DNA from: Thermoproteus sp.
GTDB taxonomy: Archaea; Thermoproteota; Thermoprotei; Thermoproteales; Thermoproteaceae
NCBI GenBank assembly: GCA_038893495.1
Contig: JAWARJ010000001.1
Coordinates: 1,291,824 to 1,355,823 of the forward strand
Length of the DNA stretch: 64,000 bases
Direction: 5' to 3'
Positions 1 through 10,073 of the stretch are shown here, piece after piece. The notes beneath the pieces are model-generated. The model was not told where the DNA came from and did not search any database. It was given only the letters and a program-made list of their open reading frames with translations. The first letter of the stretch is position 1; each line of letters begins with the position of its first letter. A program made the position numbers and the translations under genes.

Positions 1-185
1 ACGTCGGCGTTGGCGCCTCTCACCACGCGGCGTATCCTCTCCACGAGCTCTTTCTCCAAGGCCGGAGGCAACCTGCCCACGAAGACCGACCGCTGTATCC
101 TCTCCAGGCCGAAAGACCTCAGCACCTCCGCCACTTTGTTCCTCACATCATCTTCAGTTATGTCGTAGACCACTAGGAGGTACAT
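1..185 (-). CDS. cas2: Cas2 endoribonuclease-like protein, C-terminus beyond the window
   Basis: Cas2 pairs with Cas1 in the spacer-integration complex. The protein reads leftward from ATG at 183-185 and begins MYLLVVYDITEDDVRNKV, the Cas2 first beta-strand followed by the conserved Asp of the YDI motif. A segment ERIQRSVFVGRL follows, which matches the family's QxSVF region. About 61 residues are present, and the gene runs off the left edge. Its start overlaps the cas1 stop by 13 nt, so the two are translationally coupled. The identification is clear from the N-terminus; the rest cannot be seen. Confidence 0.9.
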   Translation of the reverse strand, partial: MYLLVVYDITEDDVRNKVAEVLRSFGLERIQRSVFVGRLPPALEKELVERIRRVVRGANAD

Positions 186-1060
186 AGGGCCCTGGCCGCA
201 GACCTCGCCTCTCTGTGTATCTCGGCCGAGACGGGCCTCTTGGAGGCGCCCAGCTCCTCCAGGACGGCGGCGGCCACCGCCAGCCTCGACTTATGGTCGA
301 GGAGCCCGCCTTCTACCTCCAGCTGGGGCGCCACCTTGGCCACGGCCACGTCGACTCGAGGACGCCACTGCTCCATGAAGTCGAGGACTAAGGAGGGCCT
401 CCCCGACTTGTCCACATGCAGGAAGCCCACGTAGGGGTCCAGGCCGGCCAGGAGGAGGGACTTGAAGCAGAGGGCCTTGAGTATGCCGTAGCCGTAGTTC
501 AGCCCCGCGTTTATGGGGTCTCCGCCCTCCTGGTCCCTCTTGGGCATCCCCGTCACCTCGCCGTAGGCCCTCCAGTAGGCCTCGGCCGCTACCGCCTCTG
601 CCTCAAGCACGCCGCGGGGCGTCGAGGCGGACCTCAGCGCCTCCAAGGCCCTCCCCACCTCCTCCACGTAGCGGGAGTAGGCCGACAGCCTCCGCCGCCA
701 CGCCCTTATGTTCTCCAACTGGCCCCTCACCTTCCTCCAGACCCAAGTCTTGGCCATCTGGAGCCCCCTGCCGTCGGCCGCCGCGGCGTATTGGCACCTC
801 CTCTTCTCGCCCGTGGCGTCCCCCACCGGCCTCATGAACACGCCCAAGGGCTCCCCCCTCTGGTCGAAGACGGCCACAACCGCGCCGGCGCGCATCAAGG
901 CCCTCAGGGCCCTCGTGGTTATGGAGATGCCTCCCGTCAGGAGGAACACTTCGTCCACCTGGTGGAGGGGGTACTCCTTGGCCCCCGCCTTGCTCCTCAC
1001 CACCAAGAGGCCCTTCTTGACCGCGACCTTGGTGCCGTAGCTAGCGACTACGATCTGCAT
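173..1060 (-). CDS. cas1: Cas1 CRISPR integrase
   Basis: This is the metal-dependent integrase that inserts new spacers with Cas2. At 295 aa it is within the usual size. The N-terminal beta domain (about 1-80) contains the LLTGGISITTRALRAL strand-helix. The C-terminal helical domain carries the catalytic set: E155 in EAVAAEAYW, H215 in VGFLHVDKSG, and D227 in SLVLDFMEQWRP. The motif LNYGYGIL is also typical. ATG at 1058-1060 overlaps the end of csa1 by 20 nt, and the stop overlaps cas2, so csa1-cas1-cas2 form one adaptation operon. All catalytic residues are intact. Confidence 0.97.
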   Translation of the reverse strand: MQIVVASYGTKVAVKKGLLVVRSKAGAKEYPLHQVDEVFLLTGGISITTRALRALMRAGAVVAVFDQRGEPLGVFMRPVGDATGEKRRCQYAAAADGRGLQMAKTWVWRKVRGQLENIRAWRRRLSAYSRYVEEVGRALEALRSASTPRGVLEAEAVAAEAYWRAYGEVTGMPKRDQEGGDPINAGLNYGYGILKALCFKSLLLAGLDPYVGFLHVDKSGRPSLVLDFMEQWRPRVDVAVAKVAPQLEVEGGLLDHKSRLAVAAAVLEELGASKRPVSAEIHREARSAARALCTS

Positions 1061-1889
1061 GGCACGTCGAGTAGAAGGGACAGGCCTTGGAACAGTCAGG
1101 CGCGGGGCCCGGGTCCCTCCCCGAGGCCACTAGGTCCGCCGCCTCGTCCCTCATCTCAAGGAACTTGGACCGGGCCGCGTCGCCGAGGAAGTGGGCGGTG
1201 GCTCTGTACTCCACGGAGCTGTTGACGGCGACTTGGACGTGTATCCCGTAGTCGATGGGCACGCCCCACTCCGCCTCGATAGCCATGGCGTATCCAGCGA
1301 GGGCCGCCTCCACGTTCTGCGAGGGGCCGAACTTGAACTCCACCACGGCGCCCAGCGCCACCCCGTCTGCCACCACGGTGCTCAAGCCCAACGGCGTCCC
1401 GTCGACGGCCACTTGGGTCGAGAGCGGCGCCACGTAGAAGACGGCCGAGTCCCTACTGCGGGCAGTCCGGGAGGCCAAGACGTATTGGTGCTCGCCCAAC
1501 AGCCTGGCGGCCACATACCTATACAGCGCCTCGGCCTTAGGCCTCAAGTCCTCCGGCACCTCCTCCAGAGGGGGCGACATGGGCTGGCCCGAATAGGCAA
1601 ACCTCTTGTAGTCCTCAACCGCCCTGAACAGGACGGCGTGTAGCACCTGGCCTTCGGCCAACGTCCTGTTGGGCTGTCCCCTCTCCCCCAAGACGTACTT
1701 CAGGTAGAGGTTCCTCCCCGTGGGGCAGTAGCCGTAGGCGAAATCCGACAGGGCGAGGCCGAGGTAGGCCGGAGGCCTCACGGGCGGCTTATCGAAGCTC
1801 CACCCCCTCAGCTCCGGCGACACCTCACCGCGGCCCGCGACCACCTTCACCTTCTTCAATAGGCGGGCGATCTCCAGGAGAGTTAACAC
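1041..1889 (-). CDS. csa1: Csa1, Cas4-family adaptation nuclease of type I-A systems
   Basis: Cas4/Csa1 proteins process the ends of prespacers before integration. The motif ELRGWSFDKPPV near the N-terminus is typical of Csa1. A lone cysteine in GYCPTGRNLYLKY and the C-terminal CSKACPFYSTC cluster give the four cysteines expected for a 4Fe-4S site. VVEFKFG supplies the ExK of the RecB-like nuclease core. I chose GTG at 1887-1889 because an AT-rich TATA-like stretch lies about 23 nt upstream and family members start near this point. An upstream GTG at 1931 would add 14 residues but lacks a promoter at the right distance. It is the first gene of the adaptation operon. Confidence 0.87.
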   Translation of the reverse strand: MLTLLEIARLLKKVKVVAGRGEVSPELRGWSFDKPPVRPPAYLGLALSDFAYGYCPTGRNLYLKYVLGERGQPNRTLAEGQVLHAVLFRAVEDYKRFAYSGQPMSPPLEEVPEDLRPKAEALYRYVAARLLGEHQYVLASRTARSRDSAVFYVAPLSTQVAVDGTPLGLSTVVADGVALGAVVEFKFGPSQNVEAALAGYAMAIEAEWGVPIDYGIHVQVAVNSSVEYRATAHFLGDAARSKFLEMRDEAADLVASGRDPGPAPDCSKACPFYSTCHADRSR

Positions 1890-2034
1890 GAAGTTTTGGA
1901 AAACTCTAGTATTATCCCTATCGTACTGCACCGACCGGCCCTCAGAACTGCAGGCGCCTGCGGCTCGGCTCTGTGCCCACGGCGTCGGCGCGGGCGGCGG
2001 GAGGCTTCAGCCGCGCGAAGTCTACAACGCAGAG

Positions 2035-2062: not shown

Positions 2063-2698
2063 ATGAGGCTGGCGGTGACGGTTGGGTTCGACGCCGATTT
2101 GGTCATAAGGGCCCTTGCGTCCATAAAGGCCGACGAGCTGTATTTCCTCAGAGGCGTGACAGGCGGCGAGGGGGACTCCAAGTCCGAGACAACCGTAAAG
2201 AAGATAATAGCGGCGCTCAAGAGGGGCTCCGACTACCCCGTGGAGCTGAAGGACCTAGCCAAGGGGCTCCGCCAGATCTCCCAATTGGACTTCGATGCGG
2301 TGGCTCTCGCCGGCGGGCCCAGGCTGCTGGTGGTGCTGGCCTTCGTCGCCGCGACGGCCAAAGGCGCCTGGGTCTACATAGTGCCCGAATACTCCCCGGA
2401 CCCCGTGGACGCCACGGCGCTGACCCACATCGCCGCGTTGGGGAGACAATCCGACGCGAGGCTCCGCGTCCTGGCCGCCTTGACGCGCGAGATGGAGGCC
2501 GACGAGGTGGCCCACGCCGTAGGCCTAGACGCCTCCACCGCCTATAGGCACCTCTCAGGCCTCGAGGAGGCGGGGCTAGTCGAGGCGAAAGGCTCGAGGA
2601 GGAAGAAGTACCGCGCAGACCCCCTCACCGTGGAGCTCGCCTCGATCCTCCTCGCCAGGCGCGCCCAAGGCCGTGGCGCGGCACAGAACGGCCAATAG
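2063..2698 (+). CDS. csa3: Csa3 CARF-domain transcriptional regulator
   Basis: Csa3 proteins regulate type I-A adaptation or interference genes and are thought to sense cyclic oligoadenylate or a similar ligand. The first 130 residues have the alternating strands of a CARF fold (LAVTVGFDADLVIRAL, then VALAGGPRLLVVLAFVA, which gives the ligand-loop glycines). The last 80 residues are a winged helix with recognition-helix text ASTAYRHLSGLEEAGLV. The gene is transcribed away from csa1-cas1-cas2 and has its own TATA box. It is the only CRISPR-linked regulator visible in the window, so it is the obvious candidate to act on the palindromic cas promoters described here. That link is inferred. Confidence 0.9.
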   Translation: MRLAVTVGFDADLVIRALASIKADELYFLRGVTGGEGDSKSETTVKKIIAALKRGSDYPVELKDLAKGLRQISQLDFDAVALAGGPRLLVVLAFVAATAKGAWVYIVPEYSPDPVDATALTHIAALGRQSDARLRVLAALTREMEADEVAHAVGLDASTAYRHLSGLEEAGLVEAKGSRRKKYRADPLTVELASILLARRAQGRGAAQNGQ

Positions 2699-2709
2699 AG
2701 GCGCGGGGC

Positions 2710-3483
2710 CTACTGCCTTGGGCATTCGAGGGGCGTTATCTTCACGACGCCGAGGCCCATGCCCCTCCCCGTGCCGACGTTGAACGCCTCCATGAGCCGG
2801 AGGACGCGCCACATGTCGGCCAGCCTCCTCTTCCCGAAGGCCCTGTAGAGGGCCCAGCCGGTGAAGCCCCTCGCGACTCCGCCGTTGGGGAGCCTCACCG
2901 TCTGGACGCACTTGCCGAAACAGCCGAAGTCCGTCAGCGCCACGTAGGTGTAGACCCACTTGAGGAAGGGAGCGCCCAGCCTCAATAGGCCCAGCGACCT
3001 GCCGTGCCTCACGGCCGACTTAAAGAGAGTGAGGGGCCTTGGCATGAAGTCGAAGACCGGCCTGCTCCTCCTATATAGGGGAGGCGTGGCGAACCTCGTA
3101 GGGGTGAGGAACTCGGCCTTGAAGCACTGCGTGGTGGGCAGAGGGTCCGAAAAGACGTCTCTGAACTCAGCCTCGACCACCTCGACCCTCCTCCCGAAGA
3201 GCTCGAGCCCTCCGTTCAGCGCCTCTATGAGCCTAAAGGCCAGCTTCCCGTCGGCGAAGCCCGCTCTGAACTCCAGCGGGACGCCGGGAGGGACGGCCGC
3301 CCTGTCAGCCACAGGCCTGCCTTGAAGGAAGAGGGGCGTCACGGAGAAGGGCTTCGGCTTCGCGTCGTGGAGCGCCGGATCCCCCAGAGCCCTCACCACG
3401 AGGGACTCCACCACAGTCCCCGTGAAGTTGACGAGGACGAGAGGCTCGGCGGATATCAGCCTAATTCTGACCGCGTAGGGCAT
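2710..3483 (-). CDS. cas6: Cas6 pre-crRNA processing endoribonuclease
   Basis: Cas6 cuts the repeat RNA 8 nt before the spacer to release mature crRNAs. At 257 aa the protein fits a two-ferredoxin RAMP. The C-terminal glycine-rich loop GTGRGMGLGVVKI, close to the end, is the family hallmark. Upstream, FKAEFLTPTRF and the basic stretch AVRHGRSLGLLRLG resemble the middle of archaeal Cas6. It is the last gene of an operon that starts with an ATPase at 4848, and it overlaps the preceding small gene by 23 nt. This grouping apart from the Cascade operon is notable. The catalytic His cannot be fixed by eye. Confidence 0.9.
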   Translation of the reverse strand: MPYAVRIRLISAEPLVLVNFTGTVVESLVVRALGDPALHDAKPKPFSVTPLFLQGRPVADRAAVPPGVPLEFRAGFADGKLAFRLIEALNGGLELFGRRVEVVEAEFRDVFSDPLPTTQCFKAEFLTPTRFATPPLYRRSRPVFDFMPRPLTLFKSAVRHGRSLGLLRLGAPFLKWVYTYVALTDFGCFGKCVQTVRLPNGGVARGFTGWALYRAFGKRRLADMWRVLRLMEAFNVGTGRGMGLGVVKITPLECPRQ

Positions 3484-3892
3484 AGCCGCAGAGACGGCTC
3501 TCGGCTACCTCCTCGTCGCATAGCTCCAGGGGGCTCTCCACCACCACGAACTCGCCCAGCCCCTCGGGCATTTGGAAATAACGCGTCGGCGGCCGCCTCC
3601 GGCCCACGACAACCACGACGATCGAGCTGGCCGCCAGCCCGCACCCGACCCTTTTGGCCTGCGGCTTGAAGTCGCTCTTGAACTCCACTCCCACGACCCT
3701 CCCGTCGCTACAGCGGTATATGCAGTCCACGAGGTTGTCGCCGCGACAGCCGCAGTTTTGGCACGTCTTGACGCTTCCCCCATACCTCGAGAGGTGGTCC
3801 AGCTCGTTTGCGTCGTGCGCCTCCAAGGTGCACAGCACGTAGTACGTCGGGTGGCCCCCTTCGTAGACGCGGACGACGCACGGGCATCTCAT
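3461..3892 (-). CDS. Small cysteine-rich protein with possible PD-(D/E)xK nuclease core, CRISPR-linked
   Basis: I do not recognise this family. The 143-aa protein has ten or more cysteines. They include CPC at residues 3-5, the cluster C44, C47 and C49 (TCQNCGCRGDN), and C57 and C61. D56 in LVDCIY, followed by E70 and K72 in VVGVEFKSDFK, has the D-(x)n-ExK pattern of restriction-like nucleases. The cysteines could hold zinc or an iron-sulfur cluster as in Cas4-type enzymes. It overlaps the ATPase by 4 nt and cas6 by 23 nt, so it should be made together with both. An ATPase plus nuclease pair is the usual form of several defence systems. The nuclease assignment is an inference from one motif. 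Confidence 0.6.
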   Translation of the reverse strand: MRCPCVVRVYEGGHPTYYVLCTLEAHDANELDHLSRYGGSVKTCQNCGCRGDNLVDCIYRCSDGRVVGVEFKSDFKPQAKRVGCGLAASSIVVVVVGRRRPPTRYFQMPEGLGEFVVVESPLELCDEEVAESRLCGYALRGQN

Positions 3893-4848
3893 CCTTCGCG
3901 CCTCACCACGGCGACTCCCTCCGCCGCCTTTTCCACCTCGTAGCCGTACAGCGCATATATGTACTCGGTATATCCCTTGATGTAGGACGCCAATACGTCC
4001 AGCTGCCTTATGGCCCCTCCGCCGAGCAGATACAGAGCGGTCTGTGCGGGCTTGACGTCAGAGCGGAAGATCCGATTTACACAATCGACACAGCTCAACA
4101 TGTCCAGGAACATTACGTCGTGAGTGGCCACCACCACGGTCTTCCCGCAGTTCGCGAGGGAATGTATCAACAGAGACAGCCTGGCCTGCCCCAGGGGGTG
4201 GAGGGCGACCTCCGGGCCGTCCAAGAGGAAGAGGCCGTAGTCGTCGAGGACGCCGCTGAGGAACATCTGCTCCAAGACCCCCAGCTTGGCCACAGTCGTC
4301 GACGAGGCCCTAAACGGCACGTCCCCGCCGGGGAGCGCCTCGTAGACCTCCAAGCCCTTGAACTTGAGCTCTATCCTCCCCTCGAGGGGGTCCCCCTCCA
4401 CCACCCGCAGGTAGTCCTTGGCGCAGTCGGGCGTCCTGGCGGCGAGCCCGCTCGCGAGCTTGACCCACGCCTCGTTGAAGGCCTGGTAGGACTCGTAGGG
4501 GAGCCAGATGTTGTTCTTGGCCAGGACCTCGTACTCCGTGGGCAGGTAGAACGGCCTCACGCCGGCCGCGCCCTTTATGGAGCACGCCGGCTCCTCCCCA
4601 GCGGAGCACGTCAGCTCCACCGCGGGGGCCTCCTCGCCGAGGGAAATCGACAGGCGGACCGCGCCCGCCCCGCGTAGGTAGTAGAGGAGCTCCCTAGGCA
4701 CGGCCCCGCGGCTCGCGGCGTATAGGGCGGAGTATATGAGCTTCAACAGGGTGGTCTTCCCCGACTTGGGCGGGCCCATCACGACCGTGACGGGGGATAG
4801 GGAGAGCTCGCCGGAGAGCCTATTCGGGACCTCCACCAAGACCTTCAC
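3889..4848 (-). CDS. OLD/ABC-like (AAA_21-type) ATPase in the cas6 operon
   Basis: This 319-aa ATPase has Walker A GPPKSGKTTLL at residues 25-35. An insert follows, then an ABC-like region ASSTTVAKLGVLEQMF, Walker B LFLLDGPEVALHP and the switch histidine VVVATHDVMFL. That order matches OLD- and RecF-like ATPases found in overcoming-lysogenization-defect, Gabija, Septu and PARIS type defence proteins. The usual DEPE of Walker B is DGPE here, so the catalytic Glu position is changed. It is the first gene of a three-gene operon, has its own TATA box, and is followed by the cysteine-rich protein and cas6. Its role is unknown; a defence or crRNA-linked function is inferred from position. Confidence 0.8.
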   Translation of the reverse strand: MKVLVEVPNRLSGELSLSPVTVVMGPPKSGKTTLLKLIYSALYAASRGAVPRELLYYLRGAGAVRLSISLGEEAPAVELTCSAGEEPACSIKGAAGVRPFYLPTEYEVLAKNNIWLPYESYQAFNEAWVKLASGLAARTPDCAKDYLRVVEGDPLEGRIELKFKGLEVYEALPGGDVPFRASSTTVAKLGVLEQMFLSGVLDDYGLFLLDGPEVALHPLGQARLSLLIHSLANCGKTVVVATHDVMFLDMLSCVDCVNRIFRSDVKPAQTALYLLGGGAIRQLDVLASYIKGYTEYIYALYGYEVEKAAEGVAVVRREG

Positions 4849-4866: not shown

Positions 4867-4877
4867 CTTTAAATATT
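4867..4877 (-). promoter_or_regulatory. TATA box of the ATPase / cysteine-rich protein / cas6 operon
   Basis: Read on the minus strand this is AATATTTAAAG, centred 24 nt before the ATPase ATG at 4848. It lies in the 77-nt gap after cas3'', so the ATPase operon probably has a promoter separate from the interference operon. Confidence 0.6.
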
Positions 4878-4925: not shown

Positions 4926-5588
4926 TCATCCGCCTTCGGGAGGAGACGTCTGCTTCCTCCTACTCTTGGCTATGCTTATGTCGCATCTGTTCAATATGCC
5001 TAAGGCGGCCATGGTGGCCTTCTTGGTCTTGGGGGAAACGGCGGCCCGCCTCAACGACGTCGCCAAGACGCCGAAACACAGATCGCTGGAAACGCCCGTG
5101 GCCAAGACTTCGAGCGTCTTCTGTTGTATCTTCTCGCCCAGTTCGGACTCTGGCTTCCATGCGGAGAGCGCCTTCTCCACCGCGTTGCACCTCTTCTTGA
5201 AGCTCACCGGCTCGGCCTTGTTGTAGTACGACTTGTGGGAATAGTGGTGTAGCGCCACGCCCAGCAACAAGAGGGAGAAGGGGCCGTCCGAAGGCGCGCA
5301 GCTCTCCACAAGCCCCAGCTCCCTCAACGTCCTGTAGATGACCGCGACGGACTTCGCCTCGTGGATGGGGTAGTAGCCGCTGTCGTCGCTGTACTTGACG
5401 TCGGCCTTGCCAGCGTCGTGCATCAAAGCCATATAGAACAACAGGTCCCTGGCCTCCTCCGGCCTCAGCCCGAACGACCTGGCGATTTTTAAGGCCACGG
5501 CCTCGCCCTCTTGCTTCACACAGCACGCCACGTCCAATAGGTGTTGCCCCAAGGGCTCGCCGGGTCCGGCTAGGCAGTCAGCACTCAT
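4926..5588 (-). CDS. cas3'': Cas3'' HD-domain nuclease
   Basis: This is the stand-alone HD nuclease that degrades target DNA in type I-A interference. With the ATG at 5586-5588 the protein begins MSADCLAGPGEPLGQHLLDV. The first metal ligand is H16, the HD pair is H57-D58 in LMHDAGK, and later histidines appear in PIHEAKS and ALHHYSHKS. This start overlaps the cas3' stop by 11 nt. A longer frame extends to 5624, but the extra 12 residues precede the conserved region and lie inside cas3'. It is the last gene of the interference operon. Confidence 0.92.
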   Translation of the reverse strand: MSADCLAGPGEPLGQHLLDVACCVKQEGEAVALKIARSFGLRPEEARDLLFYMALMHDAGKADVKYSDDSGYYPIHEAKSVAVIYRTLRELGLVESCAPSDGPFSLLLLGVALHHYSHKSYYNKAEPVSFKKRCNAVEKALSAWKPESELGEKIQQKTLEVLATGVSSDLCFGVLATSLRRAAVSPKTKKATMAALGILNRCDISIAKSRRKQTSPPEGG

Positions 5589-7050
5589 AGCGCGGTCCCA
5601 AGCCCGGCTGGTACTCCCTCGCATAAAGCGTGGGGAACTCTCCGTGTTCCTCCACCCACCTGTAGAGCCACTCCGAATCGACCTTGTCTACCTCCCTTAC
5701 GGATCCCCCCTCAAGCACCCCCACCTTGAAGCGTATGCGGTCTATAGAGGCGGCGAAGCTACCCTCCGGCGTGTAGGTAGGCGTCGTGGAGACCTCCACG
5801 AGGCCTCCCTCCCTAACGAAGCTGTACCCAGCGCCTCTGAAGACCCTAGACAGCTCTCCAGGGTCTACGAACAACAAGTCGCCGAGCTGGTCCAACACCC
5901 AGAGGAGCCCGCGGTCCACGTCCAGCCTGTCGGACAGCAGAGATGCGTAGCTGTCCTTCTTGTACGGAAGCCGCCACTCGGCGACCGCCTCGTAGCGGTC
6001 GGCGCCTTCGCCGAACACGTAGATCCTCCCCTCGCAGTTCCCTCCGTATCTGCATACCCTCCCCACCCTCTGCGCGACGGACTCCGGCGAGTCAGCCGAC
6101 GTTATCAGGGTGTCGAATGTGACGTCCACCCCAGCCTCTATGGCGCTCGTGCCGACTACGACTCTGGCGGACCCCAAGTTGTCTTCTGCCTTCGCCCTTT
6201 CACCCCGCGCGATTTGGGAGTGGATCAACGCCGCGTTGTAGGACGCGCTCAGCTCGCGGAACCACTTCACGGCCTTACATATGTTGTTGACCACTATGAG
6301 GACTCTCCTCCCATCGGCGAGCTCCCTCTTCGCAACATCCAACACCTCGCCTTCGTCTATGGCCTTGACGGAATACTTAACGCCCCCCATCTGCCTTTCG
6401 AACTCCTCGTCGTGGACCTCCACGAGGCGCCCATCGCTTTTGTTTGCGCTCCCCAGCCTCACGAAGACGAAGTCGTCGAAGAACTTCCACTTCCACTCCC
6501 CAAGCGTGGCCGACATGACCACGACGGGGACCTCCGCCTCGATCAACGACTCGATTGACGCCTTGAGGGCCGCCGCGGTCTTGCCGCGCTCGTCTTGCGC
6601 CACGACGTGGGCCTCGTCGAAGAAGACGCAAGATGGGTATATGTAGGCGAAAGGCACGTGGTAGTGTATGGCCCGCCCCCTCAGGACCCTGGAGAGCTCC
6701 GCCACGGGGGCCTTGAAGAGGTTGTGTACGAAGGAGTCGATAGTAGTTAGGACGTACTCCCCGGTGAAGTAGGGGTCCTTGACGTAGCCTTCCTTTCTTA
6801 ACGTGACGTCTCCGTCTTGGTAAGTGAACTCGATGTCGGGATGGTCCTTGACGTAATCCTTAAGGGCCTTGTGGAGCAACGTCCTGAGGGGAAAGGTGTG
6901 GACTGCCTTCCAGCAGAGGCCGGCGCTTTTAAAGGTGCTGTAGAGGTAGGGCCCCGCAACGGTCTTCCCGTAGCCCGTGGGGAGCTCCAGCACTATCTTG
7001 TCGCGGCCTTCCTGAATTAGGTCTAACGCCTTCTTTATCGCGGCCCTCAT
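5578..7050 (-). CDS. cas3': Cas3' superfamily 2 DNA helicase
   Basis: This helicase unwinds the target after Cascade binding and works with the separate HD nuclease. Walker A is ELPTGYGKT at residues 22-30. The DEAH box is in CVFFDEAHVVAQ, motif III is VVMSATLG, motif V is VVGTSAIEAGVD, and motif VI is QRVGRVCRYGG. At 490 aa it lacks a fused HD domain, which is the next gene. It overlaps the preceding gene by 4 nt and cas3'' by 11 nt. All helicase motifs look intact. Confidence 0.95.
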   Translation of the reverse strand: MRAAIKKALDLIQEGRDKIVLELPTGYGKTVAGPYLYSTFKSAGLCWKAVHTFPLRTLLHKALKDYVKDHPDIEFTYQDGDVTLRKEGYVKDPYFTGEYVLTTIDSFVHNLFKAPVAELSRVLRGRAIHYHVPFAYIYPSCVFFDEAHVVAQDERGKTAAALKASIESLIEAEVPVVVMSATLGEWKWKFFDDFVFVRLGSANKSDGRLVEVHDEEFERQMGGVKYSVKAIDEGEVLDVAKRELADGRRVLIVVNNICKAVKWFRELSASYNAALIHSQIARGERAKAEDNLGSARVVVGTSAIEAGVDVTFDTLITSADSPESVAQRVGRVCRYGGNCEGRIYVFGEGADRYEAVAEWRLPYKKDSYASLLSDRLDVDRGLLWVLDQLGDLLFVDPGELSRVFRGAGYSFVREGGLVEVSTTPTYTPEGSFAASIDRIRFKVGVLEGGSVREVDKVDSEWLYRWVEEHGEFPTLYAREYQPGLGPRYEC

Positions 7051-7922
7051 ATTTTGCTCAACAGTGCGCCCAAGGCCTCCCGCTCCTTTTCGCTCAACCT
7101 CTCAGTCTGGGTCATGTTGCGGACAATTGCGTATAGGTCGCCTCGATCCTCTACCTGTAAATATCTCATGAGCGCAGAGGCTACGTAGGATGTATATCCC
7201 GACCTGATCTCAACCAAATCCACGTAGAACTTAGCGAACTGCTTGGCTCTGCATAAGGGCCCCGCAGAGAGGGGAGTCGAAGTGTAGTACTTCCCGCTTA
7301 TTACTATAAGTCTCGACGAGACGTTGCAGTCGGGAAGTTGCAGGGCCAGTAACGAATTGGCCAAAATAAACAGTTCGGTGAAGCCCTCCACGTTCCGCGC
7401 CAGCCTGAAGAACCTCCTGTTGACTTCCGACATGTGGAACCTGCTTGCCACATAGCTGGGCGGTATATCCACGACCATCACGTACCTCACGTCGCCTATA
7501 GTCACGGCCATAAGCGCGTCGGCCGCCCTCGCCAGCTTCTGGAAGGCCTTCACCGTTTTAAACATCTTAGAAGTTGCATACCTATAGGGGTGGTCAGAGG
7601 ACTTCAGATATTCCTTCATTTCTATCAGTTCTTCCACATTTGCCTTTGGATTAGCTTTCGAAGAGAGCCTAACATCACAAGAATTAAAATCATCAATGCT
7701 GAGGGGTCTTGGGATGGCCCTGCCCCGCTTCTTATATTGTCCTAAGTAGTTATTATAATCTCTTACAAGCTTATCCAAATTTACATTAAACAAGTCTTGA
7801 CCACTTGTTAGTATTGAAACAGCATTAGCCTTGTAAAAGAATATATAGTCCAAAAATCTATCAACGTTACTTATATCGATGCAGATACCCGATTTGCCGG
7901 AGATTTGCTTACGGCGCGGCAT
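7047..7922 (-). CDS. cas8a2: Probable Cas8a large subunit (Csa4 type) of type I-A Cascade
   Basis: Cas8a recognises the PAM and joins the Cas3 proteins to Cascade. I assign it mainly by position between cas5a and cas3'; the sequence has no motif I can name. The ATG at 7920-7922 overlaps the cas5a stop by 14 nt and gives 291 aa, within the size range of short archaeal Cas8a2. A longer frame to 7985 would lie deep inside cas5a. In other I-A operons csa4 usually follows cas3'', so this order is altered. The 5' half (about 7560-7900) is clearly AT-richer than the rest of the locus. Other possibilities are a Cas8a1 relative or an unrelated subunit. Confidence 0.65.
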   Translation of the reverse strand: MPRRKQISGKSGICIDISNVDRFLDYIFFYKANAVSILTSGQDLFNVNLDKLVRDYNNYLGQYKKRGRAIPRPLSIDDFNSCDVRLSSKANPKANVEELIEMKEYLKSSDHPYRYATSKMFKTVKAFQKLARAADALMAVTIGDVRYVMVVDIPPSYVASRFHMSEVNRRFFRLARNVEGFTELFILANSLLALQLPDCNVSSRLIVISGKYYTSTPLSAGPLCRAKQFAKFYVDLVEIRSGYTSYVASALMRYLQVEDRGDLYAIVRNMTQTERLSEKEREALGALLSKI

Positions 7923-8760
7923 GCTCAGGCACCATGGCGGAGAGCTCCAACCCATCGGCGATGATTTGGACTGGCACCCACCCATCCACTGGCTCTACTA
8001 ACATGTCCTCAATAGGATTAGGTAGGCAGTATTTTCTCGGAGTGCTGAACAGTGGGTTCTCCACCGGCCTATCGAACATATATGTCTCAATACAATTAAT
8101 AACATTACGAGCGGCATCGCGTGGGAAGTAAAAACGCGTCTTGATCGCGCCGTCTCTTATCCTTTGCACGTTCTCTACTTCGAGAGGAGTAACAGCTATC
8201 AACGACTCCTTGGGGCCCAACCTGTAAATCATACGTGCAGACTCTGCAACCTTGGGGTCGTCAATTACGTACAGCAGATACCCGCTTTCGGCGAAATAGG
8301 TCTCGAGCCGTGTAGCCGGCATCAATAAGACTTGCACTGCAATCCTTGCCACCTCGATAGGGCTGTGTTTTCTTAGTTCTTCAAGGCTGGACTTAATATT
8401 GGCATAGTTTTTCAAGTCTTTATACACTTCGTTGATAGAGGCACCCTCAACTAGTCTCGTGGCGGCTTTGAGAGCTTTTATTCTCTGTTTTTTCTGGCTG
8501 AGCCAAGTGAAATGCCGCGAGATATTCTCCACTGACTGGTAATGCGGGACGTAGAAAGAGGCGTACCTCACGGCCTCGACCACCTCTTCGCCCACTTCGC
8601 GCTCTGTGGGGTGGTACAGCACGGCGGCCAACGCGCCCAGGAGGGTCGATGGAGGAGGGACGGGGACGCCCCTCCCGTGCTCCGCAAAAAACTGCACCGA
8701 GGTGTAGGGAGAGTAGAAGTCCACGCGGAGCAGTACGTACTCGGGCGTCTTCCGCGTCAC
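7909..8760 (-). CDS. cas5a: Cas5a Cascade backbone subunit
   Basis: Cas5 caps the 5' handle of the crRNA in Cascade. The N-terminus (YVLLRVDFYSPYTSVQFF) followed by GVPVPPPSTLLGALAAVLY is the Cas5 RAMP signature, in which a proline-rich loop precedes a helix. The start is GTG at 8758-8760, 4 nt after the cas7 stop. Its 3' end overlaps cas8a. At 283 aa the length is usual for Cas5a. It is the third gene of the interference operon. Confidence 0.9.
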   Translation of the reverse strand: MTRKTPEYVLLRVDFYSPYTSVQFFAEHGRGVPVPPPSTLLGALAAVLYHPTEREVGEEVVEAVRYASFYVPHYQSVENISRHFTWLSQKKQRIKALKAATRLVEGASINEVYKDLKNYANIKSSLEELRKHSPIEVARIAVQVLLMPATRLETYFAESGYLLYVIDDPKVAESARMIYRLGPKESLIAVTPLEVENVQRIRDGAIKTRFYFPRDAARNVINCIETYMFDRPVENPLFSTPRKYCLPNPIEDMLVEPVDGWVPVQIIADGLELSAMVPEHAAP

Positions 8761-8764
8761 GGAC

Positions 8765-9742
8765 CTACAGCCTCCTCAACACCTCGGCCTTCACCGCGTC
8801 GATGAGCTCCTCCAGAGTGTCGACCTTAGTAACGCTGGGCTCATTCTGCGACTGCTTGCCGGCTTGAGGTCTCCTCCCACAGCTAGTTATGCCCTCTCTA
8901 TCGAAACAGAAGAAGGACACGTTGCCTAGGTACTTAGCGGCTCTCTTCACGTTGAAGTCGACGTAGTCCTCAAACCTAGGCGGAGACACCACGAACTGCT
9001 TGTCGGAGACCGAGGCGATGCCCCCCAGCGGCTCCAATATCGGGTTGTATCTGGCCTTCTTGGCGCCGAACAGCAAGCCGCCGTAGAGCAACTTCAAGGC
9101 GTCGAAGGCGAGCTGTACCCTCTCCTTCCTGTCCTGGACGTAGCTTCCGTCGGACAGCCTCCCTATCCTGTCGACGTCGATGGCGACCCCCTGGATGTAG
9201 ACCGCAGTCCCCGCCTCCACCTGGAACGGGCGCTGGGCCTCCGGGTCTTGTAGGTTGTACCTCACGTGTAGCTGAGGCATCACGACCCCCCTCACAGACG
9301 TGCCGTCGGGCACCAAGTAGCTGAACATGACTGGGGACGTGCGCCTGATCATCACGCCCCTCTGCTGGCCCCCCTCTTTGGCCACCATAAAGCCCGTCAG
9401 GTCCTCGACCACGCAGGTCTTCACCCTATCGTCGTACTGCAGGCTCGCGTCGTCGGCGCGCTTGAAGAAGCCCCCTATCTTCTCGTAGTTTTTAGCCTGG
9501 TCGCTGACTGGGAGCTTCCTCTCGAGTGCGAGCTGGACCAACGCGGCCATATAGCCATACGCGACGGACTGGCCGGACACCGCAGGGGCCATGGTGATCT
9601 TGTACTCCTTGATGGAGCCGTCGTCCCCCCTCCTCACGAGTATTATAGGCGCAAGCCTGTGCCTCGCGTAGTTCCCCACAGACTCGGCCATGTTAAGCGC
9701 CTCGACCTCGGCCCTAAACCGGAGGCCAAACGAGACGAACAT
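8765..9742 (-). CDS. cas7: Cas7 (Csa2/DevR family) Cascade backbone protein
   Basis: Copies of Cas7 form the helical filament on the crRNA spacer. The protein starts MFVSFGLRFRAEVEALNMAE and continues with APAVSGQSVAYGYMAALV, both standard for Csa2. The DevR-type C-terminal part includes LLYGGLLFGAKKARYNP. At 325 aa it is the usual length. It lies 4 nt downstream of csa5 and 4 nt upstream of cas5a. The tail after about residue 285 is Gln- and Lys-rich and probably flexible. Confidence 0.94.
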   Translation of the reverse strand: MFVSFGLRFRAEVEALNMAESVGNYARHRLAPIILVRRGDDGSIKEYKITMAPAVSGQSVAYGYMAALVQLALERKLPVSDQAKNYEKIGGFFKRADDASLQYDDRVKTCVVEDLTGFMVAKEGGQQRGVMIRRTSPVMFSYLVPDGTSVRGVVMPQLHVRYNLQDPEAQRPFQVEAGTAVYIQGVAIDVDRIGRLSDGSYVQDRKERVQLAFDALKLLYGGLLFGAKKARYNPILEPLGGIASVSDKQFVVSPPRFEDYVDFNVKRAAKYLGNVSFFCFDREGITSCGRRPQAGKQSQNEPSVTKVDTLEELIDAVKAEVLRRL

Positions 9743-9746
9743 AGCC

Positions 9747-10073
9747 CTAGCTACCGCCCGACTTTTCCGCCTCGGCGCTCATGGCCTTGGCCAGCGCCTT
9801 CAAGGCCAGCTCCTTGGCGAAGTAGGGCCTCCTCTCGATAATCCTCAAGGCCTGCTCCACGGCGGCCTCCAAGTTCTGCACGGGCCTTCCGGAAGTCGAG
9901 TAGTACCTCAATGCGGAGTAAAGCGCTTCGCGCGCCAGCCTCATGTAGAACTCGTCGTTGTCCTCAACTCTGCTCAATAGGTCGAGCGGGCCGTACACCC
10001 TATCCCTAGCCAGCTGGGCGAGCAAGTCCACAAGCGATTCGTAACCTTTCTGTAGTTCGGACTGTCGCTCCAT
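9747..10073 (-). CDS. csa5: Csa5 small subunit of type I-A Cascade (Cas11a)
   Basis: Csa5 is the small helical subunit that supports R-loop formation. The 108-aa protein is predicted almost wholly helical (ESLVDLLAQLARDRVYGPLD, then FYMRLAREALYSALRYY). Size and first place in a csa5-cas7-cas5a operon match the family. The TATA element at 10089-10103 sits about 23 nt before its ATG. It is the first gene of the six-gene interference operon. Confidence 0.88.
   Translation of the reverse strand: MERQSELQKGYESLVDLLAQLARDRVYGPLDLLSRVEDNDEFYMRLAREALYSALRYYSTSGRPVQNLEAAVEQALRIIERRPYFAKELALKALAKAMSAEAEKSGGS

Follow-up and report, generated by a model that had tools for sequence, protein, structure and literature searches.

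An ATPase and a small cysteine-rich protein encoded together in type I-A CRISPR-cas loci: a candidate optional accessory module

Introduction

Why two overlapping genes, encoding an ATPase and a small cysteine-rich protein, should stand between the interference operon and cas6 of a type I-A CRISPR-cas locus is the question raised by a stretch of DNA from Thermoproteus sp. This stretch of 64,000 nucleotides (the window; G000:C1:1291824-1355823) comes from a complete genome of 2.0 Mb. The cataloguing of CRISPR accessory modules is well advanced for type III and far less so for type I. A survey of Pyrobaculum CRISPR loci skips PAE0203-0204, between csx1/csa3 and cas8a2, as well as Pogu_1139-1142 and Tneu_1129-1131, between cas6 and cas8a2 (PMC3396285), and we infer that these skipped gene numbers correspond to the pair. 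In the text searched, neither the 2025 classification (PMC12669027) nor a large-scale clustering paper (PMC10910872) mentions the pair, and the supplement of either may list it unnamed.

Results

Gene arrangement at the locus

The interference operon, in the order cas11a-cas7-cas5a-cas8a-cas3'-cas3'', is followed on the same strand by the ATPase gene, after a gap of 77 bp, and then by the small gene and cas6. The features, with their positions in the window, are as follows.

173-1060, minus strand: cas1, first of the two adaptation genes (173-1931)
1041-1931, minus strand: csa1/cas4', second adaptation gene
2063-2698, plus strand: csa3, CARF-HTH regulator, divergent
2710-3483, minus strand: cas6, last gene of a putative ATPase-small gene-cas6 transcript
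3461-3892, minus strand: small gene, cysteine-rich PD-(D/E)XK-like protein of 143 aa
3889-4848, minus strand: ATPase gene, ABC/OLD-type, 319 aa, GTG start
4868-4877, minus strand: TATA-like box AATATTTAAA, a 10-base A/T run 19 nt ahead of the ATPase GTG
4926-10073, minus strand: type I-A interference operon
4926-5624, minus strand: cas3'', interference operon
5578-7050, minus strand: cas3', interference operon
7047-7985, minus strand: cas8a, interference operon
7909-8760, minus strand: cas5a, interference operon
8765-9742, minus strand: cas7, interference operon
9747-10073, minus strand: cas11a, interference operon

The interference operon and csa3 were assigned through profile matches, cas6 through the Cas6 profiles of Pfam (E 1e-11) and PADLOC (E 5e-58), the adaptation genes through the genes of relatives, and the small gene through an alignment of its relatives. 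The ATPase gene and the small gene overlap by 4 nt, and the small gene and cas6 by 23 nt (3461-3483). The coordinates, the protein lengths, the residues D56, E70 and K72 of the small protein and the cas6 overlap recorded in the first-pass annotation matched the open reading frames exactly. Just beyond the window edge, cas1 and csa1 are followed by cas2 and cas4, as seen in the neighbouring segment L107 (G000:C1:1279000-1292500). Just left of the window, this segment also carries a defence-rich stretch (5240-8256 and 561-1910), which includes an AAA_5 (McrB-like) gene with a partner gene, a further Cas6 (2393-3502), a DUF3782/PDDEXK_10 protein and a 449-aa AAA_15 ATPase.

A promoter dedicated to the pair, as proposed earlier, is plausible. 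The TATA-like box is placed as would fit a leaderless archaeal promoter, the first 11 kb contain no more than about five A/T runs of nine bases or longer, and TTTTAAAT precedes the start of csa3 by a comparable distance. Because the 10-base A/T run lies in sequence of 59% GC, where such runs are rare, the ATPase gene, the small gene and cas6 are likely to share a transcript separate from that of the interference operon.

Homologues of both proteins were found in other genera, with 54% identity for the ATPase and about 43-45% for the small protein, and a comparison of genomes G017 and G018 revealed mainly synonymous changes, with dN/dS of about 0.2 for both genes. Both frames are real genes, because they have homologues in other genera and change mainly at synonymous sites.

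Distribution and gene arrangements

A search for relatives of the pair yielded 10 further genomes. The genes are arranged in at least six different ways, always within a type I-A cas locus. The carriers include P. oguniense, P. aerophilum-like, T. tenax-like and P. neutrophilum-like genomes, two MAGs (loci L011 and L012), G007, a relative of Vulcanisaeta and a 2.96-Mb genome from another family of the phylum (L076). Both genes are also present, but frameshifted, in Vulcanisaeta sp. JCM 16159. The ATPase gene and the small gene stand together in the nine genomes in which both are readable, with ends that usually overlap or touch. The ATPase gene is accompanied by a broken small gene in G003, and a truncated small gene lacks the ATPase gene in G265. 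The G003 small gene (L046, 10400-10600) is interrupted by stops and carries Y at the otherwise invariant E70, next to an open ATPase frame.

At the thresholds used, no relatives of the pair were detected outside I-A cas loci in 398 genomes of the phylum, nor were any found in phages, plasmids or viral contigs. A search for related loci with a single ATPase sequence returned nothing; with the ATPase alignment, it returned P. oguniense TE7, two MAGs and Vulcanisaeta sp. JCM 16159. A further match of the alignment search, to Devosia, was dismissed as covering the P-loop only. The pair is conserved together and confined to I-A cas loci, and the concern that its homologues might mostly lie away from defence genes was checked and not borne out by any locus found. 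Cas7/DevR of the I-A type occurs in 40 of the 81 genomes of the class and the ATPase in 11, which makes the pair an optional rather than a core part of I-A; most I-A loci are without it. In not recognising the pair as a standard type I-A component, the first-pass annotation was right: the standard I-A parts list does not include it.

The position of the pair within these loci varies. It lies after cas3'' and before cas6 in the window; after cas8a in P. oguniense, G017 and the T. tenax-like and P. neutrophilum-like genomes; and between a first and a second cas6 in G007. The pair forms a unit of its own between divergent cas6 and cas8a in G073, a Vulcanisaeta relative, and a minus-strand unit between cas8a and cas7 in G287. 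In the P. aerophilum-like loci, the small gene comes directly behind csa3, with the ATPase gene convergent. That cas6 follows the pair, as noted at the outset, is correct for the window but does not extend to a general rule, and since adjacency to cas6 is not conserved, a cas6-specific role was ruled out as the general function. Two irregularities were observed. In P. oguniense (L013, 8433-8786), an opposite-strand cas6 fragment, which is a remnant of rearrangement, adjoins the small gene; the full cas6 is about 1.3 kb away from this fragment. At L011 (3077-4288), two overlapping opposite-strand frames match the N-terminal domain of Csa3; one of them is probably the true gene, unless the locus has two CARF genes.

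Exchange and loss

The ATPase trees disagreed strongly with those of Cas7 and Cas3', the Cascade of the window being nearest to that of G003 and its ATPase nearest to that of P. oguniense. The window ATPase is 54% identical to the P. oguniense protein and 24% to that of G003, and the corresponding values for Cas7 are 25% and 66%. An ATPase clade uniting the window with G003 was rejected (p-AU 3e-59), as was a Cas7 clade uniting it with P. oguniense (p-AU 0.002). Most carriers share 71-80% identity in Cas1, whichever pair they have, with G017 and the T. tenax-like genome more distant, and Cas7 varies among carriers down to 18-25% identity; the tree of the pair does not follow Cas1 either. As its ancestry is unlike that of Cascade or of Cas1, the pair is either exchanged itself or persists when the effector block is replaced, with a history separate from that of each of these modules.

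Two deletions were observed. Locus L077 (G265:C129, 3894-4277) matches the P. aerophilum-like locus at 99.6% identity, and a single deletion of 1.06 kb has removed the ATPase gene and the 3' part of the small gene. Locus L012 (G018:C101, 6649-6980), when compared with L011, has lost csa5, cas7, cas5, cas3', cas3'' and most of cas8a through a 6-kb deletion and has kept csa3, a 3' remnant of cas8a, the ATPase gene and the small gene. This deletion looks recent because the cas8a remnant is still there. That the pair outlived the effector genes in G018 was considered as evidence for a role in adaptation and rejected, given the cas8a remnant and a small gene whose 3' end is also shifted. Another Cas7 locus is found on contig C45 of the same genome.

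The ATPase

The ATPase matched the AAA_21/AAA_15 and ABC profiles of Pfam weakly, under the curated cut-offs, and many defence ATPases of PADLOC with E-values from 1e-12 to 1e-3, being weakly closest to HEC-02, PD-T4-4, AriA, Old and PtuA. The best PDB sequence match of the family profile was the OLD protein 6p74 (E 7e-10). An AlphaFold2 model computed from four input sequences had a pLDDT of 84.7, and Foldseek aligned it with the heads of SMC, Rad50, RecF and PtuA at TM-scores of about 0.5. The following motifs were located.

4753-4776, minus strand: Walker A, GPPKSGKT (residues 25-32); G25, P27, G30 and K31 invariant in 11 of 11 ATPases
4195-4230, minus strand: Walker B, FLLDGPEVALHP (residues 207-218), from the alignment of 11 ATPases
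4120-4122, minus strand: H-loop histidine H243, invariant in 11 of 11 ATPases

An ABC/OLD-type ATPase is expected to have Walker A, a Walker-B aspartate and an H-loop histidine, and none of these varies among the 11 ATPases. The catalytic glutamate after the Walker-B acid, at the position that aligns with the EE/DE of 6p74 and 4yms, is absent from all 11, being G in the window and G, N or D across the family. No TOPRIM profile was found in the chain, whose 319 residues form one head domain in the model. Taken together, these data provide good support for a coiled-coil-less ABC-type head, akin to those of SMC, Rad50, OLD and PtuA, that would bind ATP and dimerise. Since no member of the family has the Walker-B glutamate, the protein probably acts as an ATP-bound clamp or switch with slow turnover of ATP. 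Two cysteines, C81 (4606-4608) and C89 (4582-4584), are invariant in the 11 relatives and are placed at the end and the start of adjacent predicted strands; they may form a disulfide or a metal half-site.

The small protein

The small protein gave no usable match to Pfam, NCBIfam, PADLOC, PHROGs or PDB sequences; one match to a PHROG head-tail connector (E 0.002) was obtained with a single family member and judged to be due to chance. In the nine aligned small proteins, which diverge down to 19-22% identity, C5, D27, N29, C47, D56, C57, E70 and F71 are invariant, and E30 is kept in all rows but one. These residues cluster mostly in three motifs.

3878-3886, minus strand: N-terminal C3-P-C5 motif, C5 invariant
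3803-3817, minus strand: H26-D-x-N-E30, candidate first acidic motif, with a predicted helix at 28-34
3677-3727, minus strand: D56-C57...E70-F71-K72, predicted hairpin of a PD-(D/E)XK-like core

The acidic residues of a PD-(D/E)XK enzyme, an E in helix 1 followed by a D and then a D or E, find counterparts in E30, D56 and E70, so that E30-D56-E70-x-K/T72 fits the core pattern. The lysine expected two residues after the second acid is not a family-wide feature. Lysine occupies position 72 in four sequences (those of the window, P. oguniense, the P. aerophilum-like genome and G007) and threonine in six (G017, G018, T. tenax-like, P. neutrophilum-like, a Vulcanisaeta relative and G287). E-x-K is therefore not the rule of the family, and the E70-x-K72 pattern noted earlier in the window protein is not conserved. 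The PD-(D/E)XK superfamily tolerates changes at the lysine position, so that its absence lowers the case for membership and does no more.

The structural model was weak. AlphaFold2 yielded a pLDDT of 41.5 from four sequences, and the best Foldseek match of this model (E 0.12) was not significant. PD-(D/E)XK proteins of about 13 kinds, according to our own classification, accounted for 46 of its top 50 matches, among them Cas4/ACE1, AvaII, EcoO109I, NucS, EXO5, AdnAB and Card1, none of them significant; we take this list as no more than a hint. Alignment with hhalign to Hjc, Cas4 and Csa1 produced no significant score, and the positive control, Csa1 against Cas4, likewise failed; the best local alignments for Hjc and Cas4, equally non-significant, fell on the D-ExK motif, and in view of the failed control this comparison was set aside. 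Cas4 proteins are marked by Q-x3-Y and a four-cysteine Fe-S cluster; no Q-x3-Y follows E70 in the alignment, and no Cas4 profile of Pfam, NCBIfam or PADLOC matched. An HNH profile was not found in the protein either, its conserved residues being instead D-x-N-E, D-C and E-F.

We therefore consider that the small protein probably has a nuclease-type fold and are slightly inclined to regard it as catalytically active. There is moderate support for a small metal-binding PD-(D/E)XK-type nuclease with conserved cysteines. The ATPase with a nuclease-like partner described in the first-pass annotation stands, and the nuclease fold itself is suggested by the low-confidence model and its non-significant matches. 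Because most relatives have T at position 72 and the ATPase is without its catalytic glutamate, either protein or both may be inactive.

Discussion

Proposed function

The six proteins of the T. tenax operon assemble into a Cascade that cleaves its DNA target in vitro with the pair absent (PMC4005679); the pair is therefore unneeded for interference in vitro. For a Csa5 pull-down, the text of that study names the six Cas proteins of the operon together with a second Cas7 and no other protein. In the T. tenax-like genome analysed here, the pair follows the Cascade operon. We read the pair as an optional, I-A-dedicated accessory module in which an ATPase gates a nuclease beside Cascade, a proposal for and against which we see equal weight. 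The 319-aa head would bind ATP, dimerise and serve as an ATP-bound clamp or switch, and the small nuclease, made alongside, would be held and positioned by it. The complex might then work outside Cascade as a nucleic-acid cutter triggered by infection.

As to its task, we tentatively place a back-up or guard effector slightly ahead of the trimming of DNA ends for spacer capture, each of them possible yet doubtful when taken singly. More speculative still is the specific scheme of a previously undescribed, exchangeable sensor-effector pair dedicated to I-A, in effect a guard of a type I system: a hydrolysis-poor ABC head would keep hold of a mini PD-(D/E)X(K/T) nuclease and let it go once I-A is engaged or disabled.

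Two alternatives we rate as possible but rather unlikely. The pair may be an adaptation factor that captures or trims DNA ends into prespacers for Cas1-Cas2-Cas4-Csa1, as Rad50-Mre11 or NurA-HerA process ends. The ATPase model does resemble the Rad50, RecF and SMC heads, the small gene is directly behind csa3 in the P. aerophilum-like loci, and a pair partnered with the near-constant adaptation module could move freely among the widely divergent Cas7 lineages; in Pyrobaculum, a role in adaptation has been suggested for NurA-HerA with csm6, likewise an ATPase and a nuclease (PMC3396285). However, many Thermoproteaceae have the same kind of I-A locus without the pair, whose tree, moreover, departs from that of Cas1.

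Alternatively, the small protein may be a dead derivative of a nuclease, stabilised by metal or disulfides, that acts as a regulator or scaffold, for example in adjusting Cas6, crRNA loading or transcription. T72 in most relatives, the replacement of the Walker-B glutamate in all 11 ATPases and the invariant cysteines of both proteins are compatible with this, as are the probable co-transcription of cas6 in the window and the cas6 behind the pair in G007. Yet cas6 is not a general neighbour, and the retention of D56 and E70 down to 19-22% identity would be unusual for a dead nuclease.

Less probable is a generic Septu-, OLD- or PARIS-like defence cassette that is sited in cas loci and works independently of I-A. 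Its patchy occurrence, its fast evolution and the weak proximity of the ATPase to the PADLOC defence ATPases accord with such a cassette, which is nevertheless disfavoured because a free cassette should also occur outside cas loci, and all loci found, in a search that covered 398 genomes of the phylum, phages and plasmids, lay in I-A clusters. An extra subunit or nuclease of the interference complex proper is very improbable despite the presence of cas8a and cas3'' in the same operon or neighbourhood at most loci, given the T. tenax results and the movement of the pair among Cascade lineages whose Cas7 proteins share just 25% identity.

An accessory found only with I-A, swapped between unrelated Cascade lineages and unnamed in the Pyrobaculum survey (PMC3396285), would be a rare case of one dedicated to type I. 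The pair also offers a system for studying how ATP gates a nuclease without a Walker-B glutamate.

Comparison with known systems

ATPase-nuclease defence pairs are already known, and what is new here is the type of partner, the degenerate ATPase site and the exclusive linkage to I-A. Septu (PtuA-PtuB) and the PtuAB effector of retron I-A/Ec78 likewise combine an ABC-type ATPase with a small partner gene, and PtuA is among both the sequence and the structure matches of the ATPase. PtuB is an HNH nuclease, whereas the pattern of the small protein is D-ExK/T; the present pair further differs from Septu in its ATPase, which is without the Walker-B glutamate, and in its location in I-A CRISPR loci. 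OLD, GajA of Gabija and AriA of PARIS share the AAA_21/AAA_15-type ABC head, but the present protein consists of the 319-aa head only, with no TOPRIM domain and a degenerate Walker B. The fold of the head and the logic of an ATPase plus a nuclease are shared with Mre11-Rad50 and SMC-type proteins; in contrast to these, there is no coiled coil or zinc hook here, and the partner, as judged by its motifs, is not a calcineurin-like phosphoesterase.

With Cas4 and Csa1, the small protein has in common the spacing of 14 between D56 and E70 and conserved cysteines, and Cas4-family structures head its non-significant list of fold matches. It is, however, half their size, has no Q-x3-Y after E-x-K/T and gives no significant profile match. 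The NurA-Csm6-HerA cluster of Thermoproteales is another CRISPR-tied ATPase-nuclease pair from the same organisms, although HerA and NurA belong to other families and that cluster is sited elsewhere, near arrays (PMC3396285).
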